From Anaerolinea sp. (GTDB taxonomy: Bacteria > Chloroflexota > Anaerolineae > Anaerolineales > Anaerolineaceae), in contig DYEC01000004.1 in the NCBI GenBank assembly GCA_020725865.1, positions 62,001-126,000 on the forward strand: a DNA stretch of 64,000 nucleotides. The letters run 5' to 3'. A model generated the notes under the pieces. It was given only the letters and a program-made list of their open reading frames with translations. It ran no database searches and had not been told where the DNA came from. Shown in pieces: positions 4,481-61,924 of the stretch (position 1 is its first letter; every line of letters starts with the position of its first letter). The position numbers were made by a program, and so were the translations under genes.

Positions 4481-4669
4481 ACTGTCGCGTTAGCTTGTGA
4501 CTTTTTCGAGAGTGTTGAAAACAAAACCAAACCACCATATATGGCGGTAAAATGCTCAATTTTTTGCATAGATATGCGCCAAATATGACTTTTTCAACAC
4601 GCTCCTGTTTCAAAACTGGTAAAACAGGGCATAAAGGGATTTGCGCGCAATCATTGCTGGAATCAACAA

Positions 4670-4944
4670 AGGAGACACATATCCAGTATCCACCCAGCGA
4701 CAATACCGCTCCATCTGGTCAAGTGCCTTGAACCTGTCACATTCCAGCAGACTGGTTGCCAGACAAGCGCCATTGGTGTATCATCTGTTTACTGCCCTGG
4801 AAGAAGGTTAAAATAGCCGCCGCCAATCATATCAGTCAGCAGTTCAAAGCCCCCGCGTGGACAAAACTCAACACTTGACCCAAGTTCACCTACGGCTAGA
4901 CCAAGTAAACACCCTCGAAAGCGGTCCCGCGAATCTAAATCCAT
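4670..4944 (-). pseudogene. ADP-ribosylglycohydrolase (DraG family) remnant
   Basis: The gap between rpsF and the DUF1028 gene holds a decayed gene. From an ATG at 4944 the frame reads MDLDS then DRFRGCLLGLAVGE, the classic N-terminus of ADP-ribosylglycohydrolases. It continues through VEFCPRGGF, LLTDMIGGGYFN and LPGQ, then a TAA (4789-4791) where the family has the Trp of GQWTDDT. TDDTPMAL follows. A one-base deletion near 4764-4767 shifts the frame into CLATSLLECDRFKALDQ and MERYCRWVDTGYVSP. Similarity stops at about 4670, only some 90 residues into a family usually near 300. One stop, one frameshift and a truncation make this a pseudogene. Intact members remove ADP-ribose from proteins. 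Confidence 0.85.
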
Positions 4945-4981
4945 TTAGCTTGTTTCCAATTAATGCGATACAAAAAATTAG

Positions 4982-4987
4982 TATAAT
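4982..4987 (+). promoter_or_regulatory. -10 element upstream of DUF1028 gene
   Basis: A perfect TATAAT lies 17 bp before the ATG at 5005. No good -35 is visible at standard spacing. If it is used, the leader would be about 10 nt. Confidence 0.4.
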
Positions 4988-5004
4988 GCAAATGGTAGGT
5001 GTCT

Positions 5005-5949
5005 ATGATTTCTTTAATAAACTCTCGTTTTCCTCTTGCACATACTTTCTCGATCGTAGCACGTGATCCACAAACCGGACAATTGGGTGTTGCTGTTCAG
5101 TCGCATTGGTTTTCTGTCGGTTCGCTGGTCACCTGGGCTCAGGCTGGCGTTGGCGCAGTCGCCACGCAGGCGGTCGTCGAGGTTAGCTATGGCCCATTGG
5201 GCCTCGAACGAATGAAGTCCGGTTTGTCTGCTGCGGAGGCGCTCACGGAGCTTTTACGAAATGATAGCGAGCGCGCTGTGCGTCAGGTTGCCATGGTTGA
5301 TAGTCATAGCAGAGTAGCAGCACATACCGGCGAGCGTTGTATCGAGGCTGCCGGGCATTATATTGGTGAGGGATTCTCCGTTCAGGCAAACATGATGGGA
5401 AATAATACTGTCTGGAATGCTATGGCAGTAGCCTATCAGAATGCCAGTGGAAACTTTGCAGAGCGGTTGCTCATCGCACTCGAAGCCGGGCAAGCAGCCG
5501 GCGGCGATATACGCGGTCAGCAAAGTGCTGCCATACTGATTGTTGCTGCCCAGCCGAGTGATCAGCCCTGGAAGGAAACACTAATTAATCTGCGTGTGGA
5601 AGACCATCCGCGACCCATTGCCGAGTTGCGCCGTCTGGTTACCCTACATCAGGCTTACGAGCTGATGAATGAGGGTGATAAATATCTCGGTCGGGGAAAC
5701 GTTGAAGAAGCTCTTGAGCGGTATCGTTCTGCGGCGCAAATGGCACCTGCAATCATTGAGTTACCTTTTTGGCACGCTGTTACCCTTGCGGAGCTGGGGA
5801 GATTGGAACAGGCGTTGCCGATTTTCAAGCAAGTATTCGAGAGAGACACCGCCTGGGCAGTCTTGCTTCAGCGTTTACCGAAAGCCGGTTTCTTACGTAA
5901 TGATCCACAGATGATTCAGCAAATTCTGGGATTGTTGGAAGCGGACTGA
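5005..5949 (+). CDS. DUF1028 family protein with C-terminal helical-repeat domain
   Basis: The N-terminal 210 or so residues match DUF1028, an Ntn-hydrolase-like family: HTFSIVARDPQTGQLGVAVQSHWFSVGSLVTWAQAGVGAVATQ, followed later by YIGEGFSVQANMM and RLLIALEAGQAAGGD. The remaining 100 residues (VTLHQAYELMNEGD, VEEALERYRSAAQMAP) look like TPR-type helical hairpins, a fusion seen in this family. Biochemical function is not established. ATG 5005 is preferred because the conserved domain starts close to it. An in-frame GTG at 4999 is an alternative. No signal peptide is evident. Confidence 0.88.
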   Translation: MISLINSRFPLAHTFSIVARDPQTGQLGVAVQSHWFSVGSLVTWAQAGVGAVATQAVVEVSYGPLGLERMKSGLSAAEALTELLRNDSERAVRQVAMVDSHSRVAAHTGERCIEAAGHYIGEGFSVQANMMGNNTVWNAMAVAYQNASGNFAERLLIALEAGQAAGGDIRGQQSAAILIVAAQPSDQPWKETLINLRVEDHPRPIAELRRLVTLHQAYELMNEGDKYLGRGNVEEALERYRSAAQMAPAIIELPFWHAVTLAELGRLEQALPIFKQVFERDTAWAVLLQRLPKAGFLRNDPQMIQQILGLLEAD

Positions 5950-5990
5950 ATTTGTTCAGCATGTCTATTCTATAGAAAGCAGGTAGATGA

Positions 5991-6281
5991 ATGACCTCCA
6001 AAAATGATATTCCGGAAGATCATTCACAAAGCGGCATTGAGAAAATACGAGCGGTTAAGCAGGCACATGAAGCTTCACTTTTGTCTAAAGCCAATGTTGT
6101 GGGGGTGGGCATTGGGCTGGCGCGCAGGGGACCCACCTGGACACAGGAAATGGCTCTAATTGTGCTGGTTCGTCAAAAGGTTCCCATCTCGCAATTGGAC
6201 CCAGAGGATATTATCCCCCGAATCCTAGATGGGGTGCCGGTGGATGTACAGGAAGTTGGAAACGTCAAGGCGCAGGACTGA
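5991..6281 (+). CDS. Small conserved protein of unknown function
   Basis: 96 residues, 41 bp after the DUF1028 gene on the same strand. The N-terminal third is polar and helical. Then come SKANVVGVGIGLARRG, the hydrophobic strand MALIVLVRQKVP, and IPRILDGVPVDVQEVG. This strand-rich segment resembles the short module found at the N-terminus of some trypsin-like serine protease proteins, but no catalytic domain follows. No signal peptide or transmembrane helix. A stand-alone structural module is possible. Function unknown, and the resemblance is from memory of the pattern. Confidence 0.7.
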   Translation: MTSKNDIPEDHSQSGIEKIRAVKQAHEASLLSKANVVGVGIGLARRGPTWTQEMALIVLVRQKVPISQLDPEDIIPRILDGVPVDVQEVGNVKAQD

Positions 6282-6310
6282 GTGAGGATACGCTGTAACT
6301 CGGAAAGCCT

Positions 6311-8896
6311 TTACTCATAGTGAATTGCATCCAGTATTGGTGTCATTGCTGCTCGCCTCGCCGGTAAAATTGCGGCAATTTGCGAAACAAACAGCGCGAT
6401 TGCTAATCCCACCACAACCCCTTGCACCGGAAAAACGTAGGTTAAGTTATAACCTGACATAGCTGTCATTGAGATCATAAAAATACGCGAAAGAATCACT
6501 CCCAAAATGAGACCGAAGATGCCGCCAATCAGTCCCATTAAGCCGGCTTCCGCAAGCACCATGCCAACCACTTGCCAGCGAGTCATCCCTACACTACGTA
6601 ACATCCCTATTTCCTGAGTTCGTTCTATCACATTCATAGTCAGGGTGTTGACTACACCCAATGAAGCTACCAGCATGGCAATCAATGCCAACACATCAAA
6701 CATAATAAATGCCTGATCCATCAGCTGAGAAATGCGTTGTTTAATTTCCTGATTAGACTCAATGATGAGTCGGTCTCGCGCTCCATATAAAGCATCAATA
6801 CGGTTTTGAACTTCCTGAACATCGTAACCGTCTTTTACCTTTATCATATATGCAGTGGCATCATTCACGCGAAAATAACGGCGTAAGTCACCCCAACTGC
6901 CTTCAATTACCTGTCCCTGATTGTAAAAATCAACCACCACCGCCGCTACGCGAAAGTCTTTGGTACCAATATGGGTACGCAGGCGGATTACGTCGCCTTC
7001 TTTTAAGCCGTATTTTTCTGATATCACGCTCGAAATAAAAACAGTGTCACCCTCCGCCAGATGTTGCATTGCCATTCTGGGATTGGTGGCTTTGTCGCTG
7101 AAAACAAACGAAGTTACCCGTCCATGTATTGCCGGATCAATCGCCATTAAGCTTAAATCTTGCTCATTACCATCTGGCTTAAGCCATTTGACATCTAGAT
7201 AGCGGATTGGTGCAACTGCTGTTACTCCTTCAACTGATTCCAGCCGGCGCGCAATATCACGGCGTAAACCGACTGAAGAGCTGACGTACAGGTCACCTCC
7301 AATGTAAGCATTGATCCATTCCTTTAGATCACCACTAAACGACTCGGTCATTCCACGAACGATCAAAATCATTGCCACCCCTATCATTAATGCTGCCACC
7401 GTTAGGGTGGTTCGTAGTTTTGCTCGTTGAACGTTACTGCTTCCGAGACGCCCGCTATTTCCATAAATGCGGCGCATGAATGGTCGTGAAACTTGTTCCC
7501 AGAGGCTGACTGATGCGGGCAGGATTAAGGTAGCACCCCCAAACAATGCGAAAACCACCAGACTGCCCAGACGGAACTGTACATCATAAGGAAAGGGATT
7601 AAGTATTAATATAACTAGTGATACTAACAATAGCCCCAATCCAATGCTCCAGCCGTGAACAATCAACCAGCTATCTCGCCCAGTGCCCCGTATCCGCAAA
7701 GCCTCAAGCGGAGAAATTCTCCCAGCCTGCCATGCGGGTATCAAAGCAGCCAAAACTGTGACAGTTACACCTACCAATAAACTGGTTGCCAGAACATTGG
7801 GGTCAATTCGTATCGTTCCCATCTCTTGGTTCATCATGATGCCCATTAGTCTGCTCAAGCCGCGCGCTAGGAAAATGCCTAATCCCACGCCTAAGATTGA
7901 ACCTAAAACTCCCAATACAAATGCTTCAATGACCACTTGGCGCGTAACTTGAAATCGGGTCATGCCCACAGTTCGTAACATACCAAACTCACGTGTTCGC
8001 TCAACAACCGTCATCGCGAAAGCGTTGTAAATAAGAAAAGCGCCCACAAAAAGAGCAATACCACTTAAGAAATTTAAACCAATCTGGTAGCTACCCAGCA
8101 TTTGCGCCATGCGGCGGCCCTGGGATGCTGGATAGATAACAGCATAATCTTTCCCTAGTCGTTCCTGGATGTCTAATCGTAACGATTCGAGCGCATCTGA
8201 ACTGCTGTATGCTGAAGAAACCACGATATCAATTTGATCAGCATACCCCGGGCGATCAAAAACATTTTGTGCAGTTTTGAGTGGAATGACACCAAAAGCC
8301 CCGTTGTTGATTTGCCCCGGACCGTCTTTTGTTATCAATCCTACAACCCTAAATCTTTGGGCACCCTTAGGAGATAAAATGCTGACCCAATCACCTAACC
8401 CGATTCCCTCTTGATCGGCGTAACTTTTGACCAGTACAATCTCATTTGTCGTGTGATCATTAGAAAGAAAGCGCCCTTCTGAAATTTGATAAGTGCGAGC
8501 ACGTATATCCAGTTCAGGATCAATACCGTACAGGGTTAAGCCTCCCATACTTGCGCCAAAAAAGCTTAAGTCAATTTGATCTGTGGAAATTTGCTCAGCA
8601 AGCAGGGTCTTCACCTGTATCGTGGGAATTGCTACTGCAACGCCCGGTATGTTTTCAACTCTTCGCAACACGCGTTCTGAAAAACCGCGCTGGGTTGAGT
8701 CGGCACTCACAATCATTAAACTGGCATTTCCAGATGTGTTCTTAAATAGACGCGTTACCGAGTCGAGCGCTGTCAGGTTAGTAATCCCAATTGCCAGCAT
8801 ACTGGCAACGCCCAGGATAATTCCAAAAGCACTGAGTAAGACTCGTGTTGGTCTGGATCTCAGGGAACGAAAGATCAAGAGTCGTGAAAGGACCAT
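6311..8896 (-). CDS. ABC transporter permease with two FtsX-type membrane modules
   Basis: An 861-residue permease of the MacB/LolCE type. Each half has one N-terminal transmembrane helix, a large extracytoplasmic domain, then three helices of an FtsX domain. The first half starts SRPTRVLLSAFGIILGV, with FtsX helices at about 270-395. Two extra helices at about 405-455 lead to the second half, which starts LRTTLTVAALMIG, with FtsX helices at about 735-855. Both halves carry the cytoplasmic VxERTxEFGMLR/EIGMLRSVGMTR coupling motif. Its ATPase is encoded 29 bp upstream. Such transporters do mechanotransmission or lipid/lipoprotein extrusion rather than solute import. The substrate is not evident. 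SD is weak. Confidence 0.93.
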   Translation of the reverse strand: MVLSRLLIFRSLRSRPTRVLLSAFGIILGVASMLAIGITNLTALDSVTRLFKNTSGNASLMIVSADSTQRGFSERVLRRVENIPGVAVAIPTIQVKTLLAEQISTDQIDLSFFGASMGGLTLYGIDPELDIRARTYQISEGRFLSNDHTTNEIVLVKSYADQEGIGLGDWVSILSPKGAQRFRVVGLITKDGPGQINNGAFGVIPLKTAQNVFDRPGYADQIDIVVSSAYSSSDALESLRLDIQERLGKDYAVIYPASQGRRMAQMLGSYQIGLNFLSGIALFVGAFLIYNAFAMTVVERTREFGMLRTVGMTRFQVTRQVVIEAFVLGVLGSILGVGLGIFLARGLSRLMGIMMNQEMGTIRIDPNVLATSLLVGVTVTVLAALIPAWQAGRISPLEALRIRGTGRDSWLIVHGWSIGLGLLLVSLVILILNPFPYDVQFRLGSLVVFALFGGATLILPASVSLWEQVSRPFMRRIYGNSGRLGSSNVQRAKLRTTLTVAALMIGVAMILIVRGMTESFSGDLKEWINAYIGGDLYVSSSVGLRRDIARRLESVEGVTAVAPIRYLDVKWLKPDGNEQDLSLMAIDPAIHGRVTSFVFSDKATNPRMAMQHLAEGDTVFISSVISEKYGLKEGDVIRLRTHIGTKDFRVAAVVVDFYNQGQVIEGSWGDLRRYFRVNDATAYMIKVKDGYDVQEVQNRIDALYGARDRLIIESNQEIKQRISQLMDQAFIMFDVLALIAMLVASLGVVNTLTMNVIERTQEIGMLRSVGMTRWQVVGMVLAEAGLMGLIGGIFGLILGVILSRIFMISMTAMSGYNLTYVFPVQGVVVGLAIALFVSQIAAILPARRAAMTPILDAIHYE

Positions 8897-8925
8897 ACAG
8901 TCAGCACCAATAATGTGTAAAGCAC

Positions 8926-9675
8926 TTAAGCCTCAAGTTTCGCCATAGTTTTCATCACTAACCGCAAACGTTGCACGGGTGTTTGATTGTGTTTCAGTTG
9001 GATTTCAACTTTTATTTGCCCGTCTTTCAGAAACACAATTCGATCTGCGTATGTTGCTGCGCGTGGATCGTGTGTGACTACAACAATTGTTTGCGATAGC
9101 TGATCACAGGAGCGTCGCAGCAATTCCATGATTAGCACACCAGTTTTTGAGTCGAGGTTGCCGGTTGGTTCATCAGCCAGCACAATAGCTGGTTCGGTAA
9201 TCAAGGCGCGTGCCAATGCAACTCGCTGTTGCTCTCCTCCCGAAAGCTGGTCAGGTTTATGGCGGCGGCGATCAGATAATCCAACGAGTTCAAGCAACGT
9301 CTGCAGGCGCTGTTCATAGTAACGCGGGTCTTTTCCATCGATCAAAATTGGCAGCATGATGTTCTCTTCAGCAGTCAAGGTTGGCAATAGGTTGTAAAAC
9401 TGGAAGACAAATCCAACATTGTGGCGACGAACCAGCGTTGCCTGTCCGTCATCTAACACAGAAAGTCGTTTTCCTGCCAATATAACTTCACCATCAGACG
9501 GTTTATCAAGACCGCCCAGAAGATGTAACAGGGTTGATTTTCCGCTACCCGATGCGCCCATAATAGCAACAAATTCACCTTTTTCCACACAGAAATTCAC
9601 TCCATCCAGCGCGTTTACCACATGCTTGCCCAACTGATACCGTTTATGAAGGTTTTTTGCCTCAACAACAGTCAT
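8926..9675 (-). CDS. ABC transporter ATP-binding protein (LolD/MacB type)
   Basis: A 249-residue nucleotide-binding subunit. Walker A is [10 protein letters not shown]-loop [16 protein letters not shown], signature [15 protein letters not shown], Walker [13 protein letters not shown], and switch His in VVTHDPRAA. The NLLPTLTA and PTGNLD segments are typical of the LolD/MacB/FtsE class. A strong AGGAGG precedes the ATG. It pairs with the FtsX permease that follows 29 bp later and is third in a minus-strand run beginning at the PlsY-like gene. The run of about 20 residues after the ATPase core is basic. Confidence 0.95.
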
Positions 9676-9735
9676 CTAGACCTCCTGCAATTACCCATAA
9701 ACTGTTCATTTGGCAACCAATATACTAGAATTCTC

Positions 9736-12081
9736 TCATCTGTCATGGATGATAACCTCTCCTTTGTATCCATCAATTGTAACTATCATATCATCTGTCA
9801 GGCAAAAAGCATTGGATACTGAAACAACTGCTGGAATTTTATACTCTCGTGCAATGATGGAACTATGTGAAAGCATTCCGCCTGATTCGGAAATTACTCC
9901 ACCGGCACGTGCGAAGAGAGGAGTCCATCCAACATCCGAAAAAGGTACCACCAAAACATCACCCTCTCTGACTTTATTGAAATCTGCAATGCCCCGAATC
10001 AGGCGCACAGGTCCGGTATAGTATCCTCGTGAAGTTGGCACACCAGTTAATTTGTTGTTTGTGGCGATCCCTACTGGCGGTGGTTCGTCGCCATATATGA
10101 CACCTGGCAAGGTAACATCGCGGTAATCTTCCATTTCTTTTTTACGCTGGTTTACTATGTCCGCACATTTATAGCCCTGATCTGGATATTTAACTACCTG
10201 TTTTACTTCGTCTAAAGTTAAGTAAAATATGTCATCCCGTTCAATCAGCAACCTATTACGAACAAAGTGATCAGCAAGTGCCAGAAAGTATACCCGGAAC
10301 AGACCATAGCCATAAGTATACAATGAGCTGATCTGTTCGCGATGCAGGCGAAACCGTTGGGCACGATGATGAAGGATCTTAAGTGCCAAGCGGCGTCCCA
10401 GCGGTGCCTGTATCTCGGGCACCCTGAGAAGACGTTCGCCGGCTCCTATCTCAGGTTGTGTAAAGGATGCGATGAGTGAGAGGATCAAATTCGGATTCTC
10501 GCGCCATGGCGACACTGAAATATCTGTACCTACATCGCTCAGATGGCCGAAGCGATCAATGAAATTGGCTACCGCTTGTTGAAACTCTTCAATCTGGGGC
10601 AGTTTCTGAAATTCCGCATAGCTGCTATTAAGTATTTGGGTTCTTAAACCTTCGTCGAACTGACTAAACTGTTGATGAAGTTGCATAAGGAAAAAGTTTG
10701 GATCAAATTCTCTTAATTCTTCCACACCGTACATTACGTCCACTTTATCCGGGTCAACGCCAGCTTTTTTCAGTTGACCGCGCAGAATCATATTGTACAT
10801 AGACATGAGAAGTGGGGCGACAATCGTGTAATAAGCTGTCTTCTGATTAAGGATAAAAAGTTGGTCAATGGTTTCGATCAGCTCATGGGGACTTTGTTGC
10901 GAGGCTTTTTCAATTGAAAACCTTTGATACTCCTGTTGGGCTTCGATTAGAAACTTCTGAATCTTTGGTGAGAAATTCCACTTATCCAACATCATACGCA
11001 ATATGCGAGGAATTTTGGGAATCAAGGCGCGGTTCGGCTTAAAGGCTGGCATCTGTACTCCTGCTGGCCCGACTCCCATCATCATTTCTAAAACCTCGCG
11101 TGGCAATCCTAAACTATTAAATACCTGACCCAAAATTTGCATGTTGAAATATGCGCGGTAATAGAACGGTTTGGCAAGGCTCATCACATCAATATCGTTC
11201 TTGCCAATCATCTCTGTAATCAAAATTTTCCAGGCACCACAAACCAAAGGAACATTCAAAGACCAGACCAGCGGTTTGATCATACCTGGCATCATTTCTT
11301 TAGCAATTGAATTAGAATAAACTGGTACGTTTCTTGTTGAGGTAATCTCCCGCATTTGTACCCAATAAATTTGCCTCCCATCATATACCCACTCCAAATC
11401 AACATCTTTGCAAAAAACTTTAGAGATTCTACGGATCTTGTCTACAAGCTCCTGCATTAACGTCAGATCGATTTCATTATGTTCTGGTTTGGCAATCCAG
11501 ACTCCCCACTTGTTAATATACGTATAAGGGGTAATTCCTCCTTGTACAAGCGCGTCGCCTCGTCCCTTGACAACTTCGATCACCGTCTCATCCATGCCGG
11601 TTATCGGATGCTTGCTAAAGGCCACACCGGAAAGCACAGGAGAAACCATCTCTTGAATGATAACCGCCATGTGAAGTTCCTTCTGACCTTTATTATGCTT
11701 CTGTATATAAATCTGAACCTCATTAGATTGGGTGGTAGCCCAAACCGACCAGATTGCCCGCAATATGTCACTCACGCCATACACATCCAGGATGGTCTTA
11801 AATTGACCTGCAAAAGAATGCTCAAAGTCGTCTTCCAGATTGGCTGAGGAGCGCACAGCATACGGAATATTTGGTGCAATAATCTGGTTTAGCTCACTCT
11901 CTAGCGAGGCAAGCATTTCAATATTATTCTTAAGATAACCATCGTATGCCTGCCATGTGCACACATATGTTGTTGGTGTCAAAAACCCTTTATCCTGCAA
12001 GAGACGCAAATTACGCGCTTTATTACCAATCGAGGCAGGAAGCCGCTTCTCCCGCAAGTTAAAAATGTATTTTTTGTTCAT
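9736..12081 (-). CDS. PEP-synthase-like phosphotransferase lacking the PEP/pyruvate barrel (RPH-like architecture)
   Basis: 781 residues from the ATG at 12081, which has GAGGG 6 bp before it. The longer frame adds 18 unlikely residues. The N-terminal region of about 290 residues is a PPDK-type ATP-grasp domain: GNKARNLRLLQDKGF, YAVRSSANLEDD, SFAGQFKTILDV, IQEMVSPVLSGVAFSKHP, then DLEWVYDGRQIYWVQMREI. A helical middle region follows. The C-terminal swivelling domain has the phosphohistidine loop GGMLSHSSIIARE, with His739, and then PAVV. No C-terminal TIM barrel follows, so it cannot be a complete PEP synthase or PPDK. The layout matches rifampicin phosphotransferase-like enzymes, which move the beta-phosphate of ATP to a small acceptor. 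The acceptor here is unknown. Confidence 0.85.
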   Translation of the reverse strand: MNKKYIFNLREKRLPASIGNKARNLRLLQDKGFLTPTTYVCTWQAYDGYLKNNIEMLASLESELNQIIAPNIPYAVRSSANLEDDFEHSFAGQFKTILDVYGVSDILRAIWSVWATTQSNEVQIYIQKHNKGQKELHMAVIIQEMVSPVLSGVAFSKHPITGMDETVIEVVKGRGDALVQGGITPYTYINKWGVWIAKPEHNEIDLTLMQELVDKIRRISKVFCKDVDLEWVYDGRQIYWVQMREITSTRNVPVYSNSIAKEMMPGMIKPLVWSLNVPLVCGAWKILITEMIGKNDIDVMSLAKPFYYRAYFNMQILGQVFNSLGLPREVLEMMMGVGPAGVQMPAFKPNRALIPKIPRILRMMLDKWNFSPKIQKFLIEAQQEYQRFSIEKASQQSPHELIETIDQLFILNQKTAYYTIVAPLLMSMYNMILRGQLKKAGVDPDKVDVMYGVEELREFDPNFFLMQLHQQFSQFDEGLRTQILNSSYAEFQKLPQIEEFQQAVANFIDRFGHLSDVGTDISVSPWRENPNLILSLIASFTQPEIGAGERLLRVPEIQAPLGRRLALKILHHRAQRFRLHREQISSLYTYGYGLFRVYFLALADHFVRNRLLIERDDIFYLTLDEVKQVVKYPDQGYKCADIVNQRKKEMEDYRDVTLPGVIYGDEPPPVGIATNNKLTGVPTSRGYYTGPVRLIRGIADFNKVREGDVLVVPFSDVGWTPLFARAGGVISESGGMLSHSSIIAREYKIPAVVSVSNAFCLTDDMIVTIDGYKGEVIIHDR

Positions 12082-45579: not shown

Positions 45580-45653
45580 GGGCGGTTAGCTCAGTTGGTT
45601 AGAGCGTTGCGTTGACATCGCAAAGGCCGTAGGTTCGAGTCCTATACCGCCCA
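45580..45653 (+). tRNA. tRNA-Val (anticodon GAC)
   Basis: A 74-nt cloverleaf. The acceptor stem GGGCGGT/ACCGCCC is perfect, D stem GCTC/GAGC, anticodon stem TTGCG/CGCAA with loop TTGACAT (anticodon GAC at 45614-45616, reads GUC/GUU Val codons), T stem GTAGG/CCTAT with loop TTCGAGT. The discriminator base is A. CCA is not encoded (next bases CTT). Confidence 0.95.
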
Positions 45654-45660
45654 CTTTAAA

Positions 45661-45914
45661 AACGCGAGGACCAGGACGAGTAACCGACTTGTATTCCGAC
45701 AGAGAGAGGGAATGGTACGTTGAGAGTTCCCTTCGGCAATCGGGCGGTGAAAACCACCTGCGAGCGTAACCCTGAACAGGGTATTTACCCTTAGTATGGG
45801 AAACGGTTGACCCCGTTATCAGTCACAGGAGATGACCTACCTATTGGATGGGTCAAACTGGGTGGAACCGCGTGAGCGTACCTCTCGCCCCAGATGGCGA
45901 GAGGTAATTGGTTT
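45661..45914 (+). promoter_or_regulatory. Threonine T-box leader of thrS
   Basis: A tRNA-sensing leader. Stem I shows the AGAGAG motif (about 45701) and a specifier loop GAAAACCA with Thr codon ACC at 45753-45755. The T-box sequence AACTGGGTGGAACCGCG occupies 45856-45872. The terminator is a perfect 11-bp stem (45879-45889 with 45896-45906) followed by a weak T stretch. Uncharged tRNA-Thr would stabilise the antiterminator and allow thrS expression. It starts only 7 nt after tRNA-Val. Confidence 0.93.
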
Positions 45915-45963
45915 AAAAGGCATCATTGGTTATTAGGAATGGAACTTTCTTTTGGAGGCACAC

Positions 45964-54250: not shown

Positions 54251-56833
54251 ATGACAACCCATCAGGCTATAGAAAAAGCTGGCATTTTGCCTACACCACC
54301 AATTCCTAAAGATTTGCCGCCTGTTCAATTGACTGAGAACGCCCGTCAGGTGCTTATTCGCCGTTATGTGCGGCGAGGGCAGGATGGCAAAGCCAGTGAG
54401 ACGATTGAAGAGATGTTCTGGCGGGTCGCTTATCATGTCGCTAAAGTTGAAGAGGTTTGGAACAATGATGTAATTGGGCAGGCACGCGCGTTTTATCGTT
54501 TATTGACCACAAAGAAATTTTTTCCCAATTCCCCCACTTTTACCGGCGCCGGCACCCCGCTCGGCCAACTGGCAGCCTGTTTTGTTCTTCCTGTTTCTGA
54601 CGACATGGGACGGTCTCCATCGGGTATTTTTCAAACATTGCGCGATGCAGCATTGATTCAACAAACTGGCGGAGGAAACGGTTTTTCCTTTTCGCGTCTA
54701 CGTCCTAAAGGTTCTATCGTCAAATCTTCTGCTGGACAGGCTACGGGTCCAGTTGGCTTTCTACGCGTATATGATCACGCTTTTGGTGAGGTGGCGCAGG
54801 GCGGGTCACGACGTGGTGCCAATATGGCTGTGCTGCGCGTGGATCATCCGGACATTGAAGAATTCATCACCTGCAAAACGGATGAAAACCAAATTACCAA
54901 TTTCAATATATCCGTTGGGATCACTGATGCATTCATGCGGGCAGTGGAAAATGACGAGGATTGGGAATTGCGTTTCCCAGATGTTCTTGCTCCCGAATAC
55001 AGCGGTTTTGATGGAACCCTTGAACAGGCAGAGGAGAAGGGTATACCCATCCGTGTTTATAAAAAGGTGCGGGCGCGTGAGCTATTTGAGAAAATCGTCC
55101 GTCAGGCACACCACAATGGAGAGCCGGGAGTATTATTCGTAGATACTGCGAATCGAGGTAACCCGGTACCTCATCTCTACCCCCTTGAAGCCACTAATCC
55201 CTGTGGGGAGCAATGGCTTGGTCCATACGAAAATTGTTGTCTTGGGTCAGTCAATCTAGCTGAACACCTTGGCGCTGACGGCATGGTTGATTGGGAAGAG
55301 TTGCGCCGCTCAGTTATCCTGGCGACCCGTTTTCTGGATGATGTGGTGGATGCCAATCAATATGTGCCGGCTGTACCGCAGTTAAAAGAAGCGGCGCTAC
55401 GCGCCCGCCGCATCGGCCTTGGAATTATGGGATTGGCTGATTTAATGTATCATGTTGGCGTTGCCTATGGTTCTCCAGAAGGCCAGGAATTTGCTGCGCA
55501 GGTTATGGAATTTGTTCGTTATCATGCCATGCGTGCAAGCATTGAACTGGCAAAAGAGCGCGGGCCTTTCCCAGCTATTCGTGGTAGTATTTATGACCCT
55601 GAGAATTTGCGTTGGCAGCCGCCGCGTTCCATCGTTCCCTATGCAAATGACTGGGGGCGTCCATCGCTTGATTGGGGCGCCATTCGCCAGGATATCCTTA
55701 AACATGGTATCCGGAATGCTGCTCAGACAACCATTGCGCCAACCGGTACCATTGCCACAGTTGCCGGTTGCGAGGGATATGGTTGTGAACCGGTGTTTGC
55801 ACTGGCATATATCCGTCATGTGAACGACAATGGCAAAGATTTGCAGCTCACCTATACCAGCCCAACATTCATAAAAGCCCTTGAAAAAGCTAGCATCCCA
55901 CCAGAAGTTCGAGAGCAGATTGTCAACCGGGTTTTGCAGGAAGGTACATGTCAGGGGATTTTCGAGATTCCAGAAGCCATCCGTAAAGTTTTTGTTGTAT
56001 CACAAGATATTACTGCCGAAGAACATGTCCGTATGCAGGCGGCACTTCAGGCATTTGTGGATAACAGCCTTTCCAAGACGATTAACTTTCCTGAGACGGC
56101 AACCGAGCAGGATGTGGCAGTTGCCTATCAACTTGCCTGGAAATTAGGTTGTAAGGGTATCACTGTTTACGTCACAGGCTCGCGCGAAAAGGTGGTTTTG
56201 GAAACTCAGGCAACGGTGAAAAAGAAGCAATCTGAAAAGCCAGCTAAGACCGTGGCACAACCTGCTCTCTGGCAGGATGCCAAAAAACCCAGACCCCGCA
56301 CTTTATCAGGGTTTACATATTCCGTTGAAACACCGCTGGGGAAAGCTTTTATTACTATTAATGAAAATGGTGACCGTCAGCCTTTTGAGGTGTTTATTAA
56401 TACAGCAAAAGCGGGTTCAGAAACTGCTGCCGTTTCTGAAGCCATTGGGCGTTTGATTTCTTACGTCTTGAGGCTAATGTCCCCGATTGAACCTGCCACA
56501 CGTCTGCGCGAAGTGTTCCGTCAGCTTTCTGGCATCGGCGGCGGGCGATCCTTGGGTTTTGGCCCCAATCGCGTGCGTTCGTTACCGGATGGTCTGGCGC
56601 AGGTGCTTGGGGAATATTTGGAGCAACGTCAGGAGCGCATGAAGGAACAGCCTGTTGAAGCAACACAGGAGGACAATGGTCATGAACAACCATTGAGTTT
56701 GCTTGAAATCTCATCAGCTTCTGAAGAGGTTTGGCATAAAATTGGCGATCTGTGTCCGGAGTGTGGTCAGGCAACAGTGGTTAATGAAGAAGGCTGCCGC
56801 AAATGTTATACCTGCGGATATAGTGAGTGCTAA
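54251..56833 (+). CDS. nrdJ: Adenosylcobalamin-dependent (class II) ribonucleoside-diphosphate reductase
   Basis: 860 residues. Reduces ribonucleotides using a radical from coenzyme B12, without an NrdB partner. N-terminal [34 protein letters not shown] (first redox Cys), [63 protein letters not shown] (active-site Cys318 and Glu), [25 protein letters not shown]. The later part contains the TSCPD module ([21 protein letters not shown]). The C-terminus is a zinc-ribbon-like tail [26 protein letters not shown] carrying the redox Cys pair. GGAGG precedes the ATG, 11 bp after nrdR. Confidence 0.96.
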
Positions 56834-56853
56834 ATGAAGATAGAGAGGTAAAT

Positions 56854-57708
56854 ATGGGTAGAGTTGCTGTGATTACAGATACGGATTCGAGTCTTCCCCA
56901 ATCGTTAGCGGCACAACACGGAATTATTCAAGTGCCCATTACCGTTCACTTTGGGGAAGAGACCTTTGTAACCGGCGTGGATATTGATGACAATGAACTT
57001 TTTAAGCGCATTAATCGTTTGGGACGGTTGCCTACCACCGCGGCACCGGCTCCCAGTGCATTCTTAAAAGCCTATCAAACCGCCTTTGAAAATGGAGCTG
57101 ATTCGATTGTGTGTATCTGTGTCAGCAGTAAGATCAGTGGCACTTATAATTCCGCACTGACTGCACGAGAGGAATTTGCTGAAAAAGAAATCACCGTGAT
57201 CGACTCACTCAGTGTTTCGATGGGACAGGGTTTTATGGCGCTGGCAGCCGCGCAGGCTGCCAGCGCTGGCGCCAGCCATGATGAAGTTATTTCCAAAGCA
57301 CTTTCTGTAGGCAAGCGTGTTCACTTATATGCTGCTCTGGCAACGCTGAAGTATCTGGCGATGAGCGGCAGGGTAGGAAAGATTGCTGCTGGCATGGCAA
57401 ACATGCTCAATATTCGCCCGATTTTGACTATAAAAGACGGAAAGTTGGAGATGCTGGAGCGCGTGCGGACGAAGAAAGTTGCCATGCAAAGGCTTGTCGA
57501 GTTGGTGGAAACTTCTGTGGGAACATCTTCAGTAGAGCGTGTTGCATTCATTCATGTTAATAATCTTGAGGACACCAATCTATTAGAAACTGAACTGCGT
57601 AATCATCTTTCACTCCCGGAAGAAGTGCTAAAAGTGGAATTCACCCCGGGGCTTTCAGTTCATGCCGGTGACGGACTGGTTGGTGTTGCCATTGTGACAG
57701 TTGAATAA
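56854..57708 (+). CDS. DegV family fatty-acid-binding protein
   Basis: 284 residues from ATG 56854, with GAGAGG 7 bp upstream. The frame start at 56827 lies inside nrdJ. VAVITDTDSSLPQSLAAQHGIIQVPITVHFGEETF at the N-terminus, TTAAPAPSAFLKAYQTAFENG, VCICVSSKISGTYNSALTAREEF, VIDSLSVSMGQGFMALAAAQ and LKYLAMSGRVGKIAAGMANMLNIRPILTIKDGKLEMLERVRTKKVAMQRLVEL are the DegV pattern. Family members (FakB) bind a fatty acid for phosphorylation by FakA. No FakA gene is in this window. Confidence 0.94.
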   Translation: MGRVAVITDTDSSLPQSLAAQHGIIQVPITVHFGEETFVTGVDIDDNELFKRINRLGRLPTTAAPAPSAFLKAYQTAFENGADSIVCICVSSKISGTYNSALTAREEFAEKEITVIDSLSVSMGQGFMALAAAQAASAGASHDEVISKALSVGKRVHLYAALATLKYLAMSGRVGKIAAGMANMLNIRPILTIKDGKLEMLERVRTKKVAMQRLVELVETSVGTSSVERVAFIHVNNLEDTNLLETELRNHLSLPEEVLKVEFTPGLSVHAGDGLVGVAIVTVE

Positions 57709-57872: not shown

Positions 57873-60356
57873 ATGGGCACATATACAATCGAACAAATTG
57901 AACGGTTGTATCGGGACTTGCTGGAGAAGTTTCGGTCAGGTCAGCTCACTTTTGAAGCGTTTGTGGCAGAAGTTTATAAACTGCAAGCGCAGGATGAGTT
58001 GGGAAACTGGTGGATGATTGATCCACAAAGCGGAAATTTTATTCGTTTTGATGGTACACAATGGGTGACAGACACCCCCCCAAGGAAACCACCAGCGTCT
58101 CCTGCTCCTAAACCATCTAGGGTCAAGACGAGCTATGCCCTCTGGTATCAAAAAGATCAAGGGGAATGGTCATCTTGCGATTTGCTAGATGAAATGGTCA
58201 TCGGTCGGCAGTCTGATTGTGAACTACCAATTTCGGATGCCAGAATTTCGCGTAGGCATGCGAAGCTTGAAACCAAAGCAGATGGTATTTGGCTGACTGA
58301 CCTTGGTTCACAAAATGGTACTTACGTAGAAGGGAAACGGCTTACACCTCATCAACCCTACAAACTGCAACCCGGGCAGAGCTTTGTCATTGCAAACGCG
58401 ACTTTTCGAGTGGAAATTGCTGAACCAAAATTGCCATACCACACAGAACCCAAATCAGCGGAGGAACCGGTTAAAATGCCACAGCCACCGCCCAGGGCAG
58501 AGCAGGTTCCTTATTCGGCATTCACATTGTGGTATCGCCATGGAGTGGGAGAGTGGCGCTCGATACCACTTAATCGCGATCTGATTATCGGGCGAAGACA
58601 CGATTGCGATGTCCAAATTACCGAAGAGACAGTATCCCGGCAACACGCACGCCTGAGTATAAAAGAGGGCGCTGTCTGGCTAACTGACTTGGGTTCTTCC
58701 AATGGCACGTTTCTGATGGGCGAGCGGCTGTCAGCACAAGTGCCGAAGAGTGTCCCACTGGGGCAGGATTTTTCCATAGGTAATACTGTATTCCGGGTTA
58801 CTATGGCTAAAGTCCCGGCACCCGATGTTGGCGGTATTAAAAGACAACGAATTGAAGCTGCGCAACCAAAACAGGAAATTCGCCCTGTTTCCGCTGTACC
58901 TTCGCCCTTACCTGTGCAAAAAGGCAAAGGCGCGGGGCTGACAGTTGTTCTGCTGGGGGGAAGTTTATTTGTTTGTTTTTGTGCAATGGTTATGATCGTT
59001 GGTATTTTATTTTTCAGACCGGCAAGAACAACTTCAACCGCTCAGGTTATGATTATGGGAAAGGCAACAATTACCCCAATCTCAGAAGCCGAAAAACCCA
59101 AACCCTCGCCCACAGTCACTCCTGAAGTGAAAGCTAATCAGACCTGGTTGGTTATTCTGTATCAGGTTGCAGAAGACAAACCTCTTGAAATTGGATCGTT
59201 TCTGGATGTAAACGAAAGCGAGCTGGTCGGTGGCAGTGACCGTGTGCGTATTGTTACACAATTTGACCGTTTCAAAGGTGGGCTAGATGAGGAGGGTGGA
59301 TGGACCAGCGCCAAGCGATTGGAGATAGCCAAAGATACCGATGTCGAACGTATCAATTCGCCCGAAATCAGCGATCAGGGTGAAGTAGATAGCGCAGCCC
59401 CCACAACCTTTGTCGAGTATGTCACTTGGGCGATAGAGACTTATCCGGCGGACAAGTATGTATTAATTGTGTCGGATCATGGCATGGGATGGGTGGGAGC
59501 GCTAGCTGACGATACTCCAACTGAGAAAAACTACATGAGATTGAGTGATATTGAGCAGGCTCTTTCTTATATCCTTCAAAAAACTGGTATTCGTCAGTTT
59601 GATGTGTTAGGTTTTGATGCCTGTTTAATGGGGCAAATGGAAGTCTTTTTCACCATGGCGCCTTACGCTCGTTATGTGGTTGCTTCTGAGGAAGTTGAAC
59701 CTATGCTTGGTTGGGCTTATGAAGGGATGCTGAAGCAGTTAGTGAATAATCCGGACATGAAAGCGGCAGACCTGGTTCAAGCGGCAGTTAATAGTTATAT
59801 TGACCAGGACATTATAGTCACAAATGACTACATCCGTGATCAAATTTTTGAGGGCGCGTCTGCGCAGGATGTTGCTTATGAAAAAGGCAAAAACAGCACC
59901 ATGTCGGCAGTAGATTCCAGCCGCATCGCTGTGGTCATTGAGGCGCTCGATGCTTTTATTGCATCTCTGCAAAATGCAGATCAGTCTGTTGTAGCTTGGG
60001 CGCGGACTAACGCCCAACATTATGAAGATGCCTTTATGGACGAAGACACGCCTTTGCATAATTCGTCCACGATTGATCTGGCTCATTTTGCCATGCTAAT
60101 GAAAGAAAATAGTGAGAATGCTGAGTTATCAGCATCGGCTGATCAGTTAATCAATGCAATCCAAGAAGTTGTGGTTTCAGAAAAACATGGACCAGAAAGT
60201 CCCGGGTCACATGGCATTTCCATTTTCTTTCCCTTGTCCGAGATTTATGTCGCAACATACGATGATACATACAGCCTTTGCTATACCTGTATTGCAAATA
60301 CCTTTGCGCAAAACTCCAGATGGCCTGCTTTTCTGGAATTTCATTACTCCCAATAA
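57873..60356 (+). CDS. Membrane protein with two FHA domains and a C11 (clostripain-type) peptidase domain
   Basis: 827 residues. Residues 1-70 are a small helical and Trp-rich module (LGNWWMIDPQSGNFIRFDGTQW). FHA1 spans about 88-182 (IGRQSDCE, ISRRHAKL, GSQNGTYVEG) and FHA2 about 217-311 (IGRRHDCD, VSRQHARL, GSSNGTFLMG), both with intact pThr-binding Arg, Ser and Asn. A transmembrane helix lies at about 355-381, placing FHA inside and the rest outside. The C11 domain covers about 424-827 with catalytic His536 in SDHGMGW and Cys584 in FDACLMG. Likely a caspase-fold peptidase cleaving after basic residues, coupled to Ser/Thr phosphorylation. No kinase is adjacent. The FHA-TM gene follows 20 bp later. 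Confidence 0.9.
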   Translation: MGTYTIEQIERLYRDLLEKFRSGQLTFEAFVAEVYKLQAQDELGNWWMIDPQSGNFIRFDGTQWVTDTPPRKPPASPAPKPSRVKTSYALWYQKDQGEWSSCDLLDEMVIGRQSDCELPISDARISRRHAKLETKADGIWLTDLGSQNGTYVEGKRLTPHQPYKLQPGQSFVIANATFRVEIAEPKLPYHTEPKSAEEPVKMPQPPPRAEQVPYSAFTLWYRHGVGEWRSIPLNRDLIIGRRHDCDVQITEETVSRQHARLSIKEGAVWLTDLGSSNGTFLMGERLSAQVPKSVPLGQDFSIGNTVFRVTMAKVPAPDVGGIKRQRIEAAQPKQEIRPVSAVPSPLPVQKGKGAGLTVVLLGGSLFVCFCAMVMIVGILFFRPARTTSTAQVMIMGKATITPISEAEKPKPSPTVTPEVKANQTWLVILYQVAEDKPLEIGSFLDVNESELVGGSDRVRIVTQFDRFKGGLDEEGGWTSAKRLEIAKDTDVERINSPEISDQGEVDSAAPTTFVEYVTWAIETYPADKYVLIVSDHGMGWVGALADDTPTEKNYMRLSDIEQALSYILQKTGIRQFDVLGFDACLMGQMEVFFTMAPYARYVVASEEVEPMLGWAYEGMLKQLVNNPDMKAADLVQAAVNSYIDQDIIVTNDYIRDQIFEGASAQDVAYEKGKNSTMSAVDSSRIAVVIEALDAFIASLQNADQSVVAWARTNAQHYEDAFMDEDTPLHNSSTIDLAHFAMLMKENSENAELSASADQLINAIQEVVVSEKHGPESPGSHGISIFFPLSEIYVATYDDTYSLCYTCIANTFAQNSRWPAFLEFHYSQ

Positions 60357-60376
60357 AAGGCGGGAGGGATAACTTT

Positions 60377-61924
60377 ATGTACGCATCAAAAAAATACGTA
60401 TTACGTTACAGAAAAGATGATGAGACCTGGAAAGAGATGCCCTTGGCTGGTGAGATCAGCATTGGTAGGAGTGCCCAGGCAACGCTTCAGCTTGAGGATG
60501 AAGAAATTTCACCTGTTCATGTTCGCCTTGAACTCAAGTCCGATGGTGTCTGGGTTACCGATCTGGGCTCAGTCTCTGGAACGATATTAGAAGGACAGCG
60601 TCTTGAGCCACAGACGCCGGTTCGTTTAAAAGAAAGGCAATCTTTCCAGACAGGCAGTTACAACTTTACTTTGTTTGAAATTCAACCACAATCCGTTGAT
60701 GAGAGGCAGACTGGCGAAGCCGGGACAACATCCGTTGAGAAACTTGTCTCTCGAAGCCCATGGTTGCGTTGGGTGTTGGAGCATGCTGCCCTGGTAAGTG
60801 GCGTGGTGATAACGATTGCTCTGGTCAGCGTTGCCTTGGTATTTTTTTTAATACAACAGCAAAATGCTCAGGTGGCAGCGATTAATCAGACAGCCACAGC
60901 ATTAGCAGCAGCAACTCAACCCGCAGAAACTCTGATGCCTGGTATAACCCCACCTGCAACATCTACCGTTACCAGGACACTCCCGCCCTTTGTTGCTCAA
61001 ACTGTTCAGCCGACACAAAGTGCTGATCAATTAACAGTTATTCCTCCAGGTCTGGGCAACATTCAGATTGCCCCGATCAATCTTTTAAGCAATGGCCAGG
61101 TAATTGGAAATCTGTGGCAGACATTACTGACAATTGGCAGTGGGCAGTCTGTTGATCTCGCAACAACCATCACGGGGAACAATATTGGTTTTGTTTATCG
61201 TTATGCCGGTTTAAAAGAAATTGGGCCGGATGGAAGTCAAGTGTTTCGGACGATAGAAATGCAATATTTGGGTGCCCAGGATAGTCGGGAAATTGGTGGT
61301 GTTCTGATACCGGATTGGGGAGAGGGAGAGATACCCATTAAGTTTAATTGGAAGCCCATGATTACCCGTGTGGGAGATGGGACACGCTGGGAAGATGCGC
61401 TGATCTATCCAGTGAATTACAACTCGGTAGCAAAGGTAGAAGGAGCCGCGTATGCAACCAACGGTAGATATACCTATCTGAGTGGCAAACAGGTGCCGAG
61501 CAGAATATTTTTTGATGGAAGCGGCAAGATGATCGCCGTTTATGGATACAAAGAAAGCGAGGGCTTTCGGGGCACTCCCTTTGAAATTGTACCGGAGCGG
61601 GGGGACAAATTCACCATCCTAAAGCAACAATTTGAGTTTGAGAATGGTCAGCAGCCAACTTCTCCCGTTTTACCGCCTGTGTTAACCGATTTATTGGGGC
61701 AGGCTACTGCGCTTCCATTTGGCCAACTGATCGGTCAGTCTGGCATACCAGGATATGGGCAAGGCGACTTTATGTTATATGAGGATGGTACGCTGGTGTA
61801 TCAGGGTACGCCATTTCGCTGGCAAAAACAGGAAAATATACCCGGAGATTATGTTGTTGGCCTTGTCGTTGAGGACCTGGACGGCAATTATTTGATTGCT
61901 TATGTGCCCGTTCGTGTTAGGTAA
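60377..61924 (+). CDS. Single-pass membrane FHA-domain protein with large extracytoplasmic domain
   Basis: 515 residues from ATG 60377 (GGGAGGG upstream). The longer frame overlaps the previous gene. FHA domain at about 5-98: IGRSAQATLQLEDEEISPVHVRLELK, WVTDLGSVSGTILEG. The conserved Arg after Ser is Pro and the Asn of NGT is Ser, so phosphothreonine binding is doubtful. Transmembrane helix at about 139-163 (AALVSGVVITIALVSVALVFFLI), a Thr/Pro/Gln linker, then about 300 residues of beta-rich domain (IGNLWQTLLTIGSGQSVDL, GEGEIPIKFNWKPMITRVGDG, DYVVGLVVEDLDGNYLIAYVPVRV) with no recognised family. Probably cotranscribed with the FHA-C11 gene and a candidate partner or substrate. Confidence 0.85.
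   Translation: MYASKKYVLRYRKDDETWKEMPLAGEISIGRSAQATLQLEDEEISPVHVRLELKSDGVWVTDLGSVSGTILEGQRLEPQTPVRLKERQSFQTGSYNFTLFEIQPQSVDERQTGEAGTTSVEKLVSRSPWLRWVLEHAALVSGVVITIALVSVALVFFLIQQQNAQVAAINQTATALAAATQPAETLMPGITPPATSTVTRTLPPFVAQTVQPTQSADQLTVIPPGLGNIQIAPINLLSNGQVIGNLWQTLLTIGSGQSVDLATTITGNNIGFVYRYAGLKEIGPDGSQVFRTIEMQYLGAQDSREIGGVLIPDWGEGEIPIKFNWKPMITRVGDGTRWEDALIYPVNYNSVAKVEGAAYATNGRYTYLSGKQVPSRIFFDGSGKMIAVYGYKESEGFRGTPFEIVPERGDKFTILKQQFEFENGQQPTSPVLPPVLTDLLGQATALPFGQLIGQSGIPGYGQGDFMLYEDGTLVYQGTPFRWQKQENIPGDYVVGLVVEDLDGNYLIAYVPVRVR

Follow-up and report, generated by a model that had tools for sequence, protein, structure and literature searches.

An adjacent gene pair of Anaerolinea sp. most likely encodes a split C11-CTD protease carrying FHA domains

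The window analyzed here, a stretch of 64,000 nucleotides of Anaerolinea sp. (GenBank assembly GCA_020725865.1, contig DYEC01000004.1, positions 62,001 to 126,000 of the forward strand), contains two neighboring genes that are the subject of this work. Gene 1 codes for a protein with two FHA domains, a transmembrane (TM) helix and a C11 peptidase domain. Gene 2 codes for a protein with one FHA domain, a TM helix and a beta-rich domain, termed CTD in the following, that is fused directly behind C11 in related proteins. Both genes have the same orientation and no other gene lies in the 20 bp between them. An earlier note, prepared from the letters of this stretch without database searches, had proposed an FHA-FHA-TM-C11 peptidase paired with an FHA-TM protein, and its coordinates, the 20-bp gap, the domain content and the catalytic residues His536 and Cys584 were confirmed by open reading frames (ORFs), Pfam and residues that are invariant in relatives. 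The features of the pair are as follows.

57873..60356, plus strand: gene 1, FHA-FHA-TM-C11 peptidase of 827 amino acids (aa), identified as ORF and by Pfam, with orthologues at loci L120 and L121
57873..58082, plus strand: N-terminal module of protein 1 (aa 1-70), a helix pair followed by a W/F-rich segment
58125..58415, plus strand: FHA1 (aa 85-181), with R112, S126, H129 and N148 the same in 3/3 orthologues
58512..58802, plus strand: FHA2 (aa 214-310), with R241, S255, H258 and N277 the same in 3/3 orthologues
58944..59000, plus strand: single TM helix of protein 1 (aa 358-376), from hydropathy
59133..60350, plus strand: C11 peptidase domain (clostripain family, caspase fold; aa 421-826), PF03415 at E 1e-39
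59478..59480, plus strand: catalytic His536 in the motif SDHG, unchanged in alignments of 20 and of 52 relatives
59616..59624, plus strand: Asp582-Ala-Cys584 in the motif DACLM, with the Asp and the catalytic Cys invariant in 20 and in 52 sequences
60362..60368, plus strand: GGGAGGG, resembling a ribosome-binding site, ahead of gene 2 (read from the sequence)
60377..61924, plus strand: gene 2, FHA-TM-CTD protein of 515 aa with an ATG start, identified as ORF and by Pfam, with orthologues at L120 and L121
60386..60676, plus strand: FHA3 (aa 4-100), with a degenerate phosphothreonine site
60797..60853, plus strand: single TM helix of protein 2 (aa about 141-159), from hydropathy
60980..61921, plus strand: CTD (aa 202-515), all-beta, double sandwich-like, fused behind C11 in relatives
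61646..61762, plus strand: CTD insert (about aa 424-462, ~38 residues), near the C-terminal strands

Protein 1 scores 137.3 bits against PF03415 (Peptidase_C11; cut-off 25.8) and is thus a member of the C11 family. It has the catalytic His (H536), the catalytic Cys (C584) and, two residues ahead of the latter, the S1 Asp (D582), which occupies the same position as Asp177, the S1 Asp of PmC11 (PMC4850288). Its C11 domain shares 39-45% identity with fused relatives from Chloroflexota, and its score against the clostripain equivalog TIGR02806 (42.8 bits) is far under the cut-off of 550. C11 enzymes are usually activated by cleavage after Lys or Arg in the loop that follows the catalytic His (PMC4850288, PMC10315481). 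The window protein has two basic residues, K552 and R556, between His and Cys; the L121 orthologue has none there, and a basic residue was present in the stretch examined in 53/78 family members. The basic residue varies among members; a fixed autocleavage site is not supported, and activation-loop cleavage of the window protein is uncertain.

The FHA part of protein 1 matches PF00498 in two stretches (131.9 bits, E 1e-38 across the whole protein). The closest named FHA model, FhaB/FipA (NF049868), gives 120.6 bits, under its equivalog cut-off of 125. As the earlier note had read from the window alone, the phosphothreonine sites are intact: the R, S and N that contact phosphothreonine and the structural H of both FHA1 and FHA2 are invariant across the three orthologues. 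Judging from these residues, both domains should be competent phosphothreonine readers, and if any part of the pair reads phosphothreonine, it would be the protease subunit; that its FHA domains do bind phosphothreonine we consider probable. The N-terminal module (aa 1-70) matches no Pfam family and is missing from the orthologue of genome G246, encoded at L121.

Protein 2 contains one FHA domain according to Pfam (E 1e-13) and otherwise only a match to the FHA-like Yop-YscD model. The three orthologous FHA3 domains have only the H in common; each of R, S and N is missing from one or more of them, and the window protein carries Ser in place of the Asn of its NGT loop. FHA3 does not have the full set of R, S, H and N in the phosphothreonine loops and is probably no longer a reader but a structural copy. 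The FHA-TM-beta layout that had been put forward for the second protein is retained; the earlier note had not remarked on the degenerate state of its FHA domain. The outer domain is predicted to be all-beta (AlphaFold2, predicted local distance difference test (pLDDT) 75.6). With CTD by itself, Foldseek found nothing significant in the PDB, and for this reason we give the domain no functional name. Matches to arrestin- and transglutaminase-type domains were discarded because template-modelling scores (TM-scores) were < 0.2.

In both proteins one predicted TM helix separates the FHA part from the outer domain, and neither has an N-terminal signal. The K/R residues flanking the helix of protein 2, three before and none after, fit an FHA domain inside and a beta domain outside. 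The corresponding bias in protein 1 is weak (4 K/R within 30 residues on the N-terminal side vs 3 on the other), and its topology follows from hydropathy and the lack of a signal peptide. Taken together, the FHA domains are predicted to be cytosolic, with C11 and CTD outside.

The nature of the outer domain of protein 2 emerged when 151 genomes of the order were searched with the whole protein. Besides FHA matches, proteins of 720-890 aa were retrieved that match its outer domain; they begin with a tail or a signal sequence, which is followed by a C11 peptidase domain and, immediately after it, CTD (TM-C11-CTD). The fused CTDs share 25-35% identity with the outer part of the gene 2 protein, which a CTD profile finds at E 7e-84. 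CTD occurs in 59/147 genomes of the family, 95/400 of the order, 103/396 of the class and 36/350 sampled across the phylum (these samples overlap), and nearly all of these CTDs are fused to C11. For one fused relative, AlphaFold2 (52 sequences) returned a mean pLDDT of 88 and a predicted TM-score (pTM) of 0.90 over the 685 aa of C11 plus CTD, so that the two domains are placed confidently against each other as one predicted folded unit; the best PDB match of this model is clostripain (E 2e-19). The window genome (3.1 Mb, 26 contigs, 99% complete) encodes 12 FHA domains and 12 Ser/Thr kinases as well as exactly one C11 and one CTD, both in this pair; instead of a single chain in which C11 and then CTD follow an N-terminal TM helix or signal, it holds both domains on two chains. 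Since CTD is fused to C11 in relatives (a Rosetta-stone relation), the window proteins can be regarded as halves of one enzyme. A split two-domain protease is the most likely reading of the pair, and we are rather confident that the protease has two parts. The earlier note had considered the partner as an adaptor, inhibitor or substrate, which has to be given up in that form: its outer domain is the one that normally resides on the same chain as C11, and an unrelated protein in any of these roles is very unlikely. The beta domain that the note described is predicted to be all-beta and now has an identity as C11-associated CTD. The domain composition of the pair is well supported. C11-CTD proteases as such represent an undescribed two-domain family that is common in Chloroflexota.

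Some further observations concern the fused proteins. The cytosolic tails of many TM-C11-CTD proteins (L069, L074, L075, L089 and others) contain a short recurring motif, RRR...R-A-E-A-P or PExxxQRRRxGxxPT, that may serve in binding or be phosphorylated. One fused C11-CTD protein (L191:5681-8722) has an extra N-terminal multi-TM domain which, by eye, resembles a CAAX-type membrane protease. Another instance of FHA beside a C11-CTD protease is a gene for a small FHA-TM protein of 197 aa (L082:8317-8907), located ~135 bp downstream of a gene for a fused C11-CTD protein.

The combination of FHA-FHA-TM-C11 and FHA-TM-CTD was found in three genera of the same family (3/147 genomes), and the genes are adjacent on one strand in 3/3 cases, in agreement with the earlier expectation that the pair is conserved together. 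No paired form was seen in the wider samples of order, class and phylum. The two pairs outside the window are located as follows.

L120 (genome G178; same locus as L184, Anaerolineae bacterium Ch10), minus strand: gene 1 at 8390-11074 (start unsure), gene 2 at 6878-8374
L121 (genome G246), plus strand: gene 1 at 4536-6782, gene 2 at 6782-8269, genes touching

In G246 there is also a paralogue in which C11 and CTD are fused (L137). In the trees, a single clade unites the three split CTDs (support 96/85), which contain the insert that is absent from fused CTDs, and another clade unites the three FHA3 domains (99/99); the C11 of the window and that of G178 come together with 100/100 support. Because the split CTDs and the FHA3 domains are each one clade and the insert is common to all three, the paired form likely arose once. 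Relations among FHA1 and FHA2 are not resolved in the FHA trees; the split itself likely arose by duplication and complementary loss. We rejected a frameshifted or broken single gene as its cause because each half has its own FHA-TM part and the layout recurs in three genera. None of the neighbors of the pair (DegV, thiolase, PilM/MreB-like) is common to the window, L120 and L121. A DegV-family gene lies upstream of the C11 gene in the window (56827-57708), and one is located downstream of a fused C11-CTD gene in two genomes of genus g3 (L081:5308-6165 and L083:8432-9289).

No description of FHA joined to C11/clostripain was found in the open-access literature. The peptidases clostripain, PmC11, fragipain and globupain resemble the window C11 in their caspase fold, HG...DxC dyad, S1 Asp and secreted or surface-facing location (PMC4850288, PMC10315481); the known C11 peptidases differ from the pair in being secreted single chains that have no FHA, no TM anchor and no second subunit with this CTD. 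The single-chain TM-C11-CTD proteins found in Chloroflexota share C11, CTD and the outward topology with the pair but consist of one polypeptide, which on the cytosolic side has, in place of an FHA domain, a short tail that is basic and disordered, or else a signal sequence. FHA-fused PrsW (PMC3482391), for which a signalling role has been proposed, likewise joins an FHA reader to a membrane peptidase; this peptidase is, however, unrelated and has neither an outer caspase fold nor a split partner. FhaB/FipA and GarA/OdhI, readers of Ser/Thr kinases, are the closest sequence models for the window FHA domains, but they do not include a protease, and the FhaB/FipA score is the sub-threshold one given above. 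PADLOC profiles for anti-phage defence matched no family at E <= 0.01 and thus provide no link to defence.

Related in architecture are single-chain FHA-TM-C11-CTD proteins from two other families of the phylum that belong to another class. Like the window pair, they combine a cytosolic FHA domain with an intact, canonical phosphothreonine site, a TM helix and outer C11 and CTD; they differ in having one chain, one FHA domain of a different subtype and a C11 that is found elsewhere in the tree. A single clade of all FHA-bearing C11s was rejected (approximately unbiased test, p-AU 0.007). Given the separate C11 position and the other FHA type, FHA apparently joined the C11-CTD protease more than once, independently. 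The next gene on the same strand in family f118, of this other class, encodes a membrane Ser/Thr kinase of 760-780 aa in 5/5 genomes (2 genera), and the two neighbor kinases tested matched Pkinase at E 7e-37 and 7e-39. Genomes of this kind hold 20-27 kinases each, from which we estimate the chance of such an adjacency at about one percent per lineage. A kinase-FHA-effector operon was found in the f118 relatives only; none of the 12 kinases of the window genome is encoded in the window, the nearest being ~14 kb downstream of the pair. The linked Ser/Thr kinase that the earlier note had suggested looking for is thus present in the other class and missing at the window, L120 and L121.

The best explanation that we can offer is a membrane-anchored, two-subunit, outward-facing C11 peptidase whose FHA domains dock on phosphothreonine, and we consider the chances of this reading as a whole to be about even. 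Both proteins would insert with the N-terminus inside and the C-terminus outside, subunit 1 contributing the caspase-fold catalytic domain and subunit 2 the beta-rich CTD that packs on C11 in models of relatives. By analogy with the fused proteins, C11 and CTD would dock non-covalently outside the cell and rebuild the usual active unit, while one TM helix per subunit would tether each outer domain to the cytosolic FHA domains. FHA1 and FHA2 may bind phosphothreonine generated by a Ser/Thr kinase of the cell, either on the kinase itself or on another membrane protein, and cytosolic phosphorylation could determine the site at which the two halves come together and perhaps also whether they do so at all. 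As is characteristic of the C11 family, the enzyme would presumably cleave surface or secreted proteins after Arg or Lys. The homology of the outer domain to CTD, the catalytic and phosphothreonine-binding residues and the adjacency of the genes can be read from the sequence itself, the packing of C11 and CTD is predicted by modelling, and phospho-gating of the protease is plausible. That phosphothreonine controls assembly or activity beyond mere placement is a tentative proposal, and we regard it as rather unlikely that the pair is an inside-out signalling protease, in which halves on two single-pass proteins are joined or released outside by phosphothreonine recognition inside. Ser/Thr kinases and FHA domains are common in bacteria, and few membrane-crossing outputs are known; an outer protease wired to an inner FHA reader would offer a concrete way in which phosphorylation in the cytosol could remodel the cell surface.

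Several points weigh against phosphorylation-dependent docking and control. The kinase linkage was seen in another FHA-C11 lineage, whose FHA is of another type, and the five f118 genomes from two genera may represent one ancestral event. The surroundings of the pair in the window, at L120 and at L121 include no linked gene for a kinase, a phosphatase or a further FHA protein, phosphatases not having been searched for specifically. A symmetric bridge between the subunits through phosphothreonine is unlikely, as FHA3 of the partner lacks the phosphothreonine residues. Most C11-CTD proteins carry no FHA domain, so the basic enzyme does not need one, and a single TM helix offers no obvious path for a conformational signal. 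Finally, the C11 of L121 does not clearly group with the other two, a three-way clade being neither demonstrated nor rejected (p-AU 0.34).

Much of the same evidence bears on the possibility that the FHA domains only localize the split C11-CTD protease at a kinase-rich site such as the division site or the pole, its activity being uncontrolled. The anatomy would be identical, FHA proteins such as GarA and FhaB/FipA often act as scaffolds, and FhaB/FipA is the closest named FHA model, although the score stays below its cut-off (120.6 vs 125). Placement alone, however, hardly explains a split enzyme with FHA-TM on each half, and we see localization without control as possible but on the unlikely side. 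We hold it to be quite unlikely that the gene 2 protein is a regulator derived from a copied CTD, i.e., an inhibitor or decoy that competes or blocks. In g100/g101, G625 and G708, complete C11-CTD genes, whose enzymes already own a CTD, are indeed immediately followed by stand-alone CTD genes without C11, and the split CTDs have the insert that fused CTDs lack. The C11 proteins of the three paired systems, on the other hand, have no CTD of their own and the window genome contains no other, so that a complementing role is simpler; moreover, the stand-alone CTDs form a separate clade (100/99). It is similarly improbable that the FHA domains are evolutionary baggage or generic oligomerization modules on a constitutive protease with ordinary C11 zymogen processing, since, although FHA3 is degenerate and K552 and R556 of the window protein lie in the loop where cleavage after Lys/Arg is the norm (PMC4850288, PMC10315481), FHA1 and FHA2 keep every phosphothreonine-contacting residue over three genera, the basic loop residue is not conserved, and FHA and C11 appear to have joined more than once, one time with a linked kinase.

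The stand-alone CTD genes (about 265-290 aa) were observed at L122, L123, L124, L125, L127, L129, L131, L167 and L187, and their products are possible secreted partners or regulators of the fused enzyme. Elsewhere in the window (45580-45895), a T-box leader (RF00230, 101.8 bits) stands ahead of an ORF at 45952, and 4 bases in front of this leader is the end of a tRNA-Val(GAC) gene.

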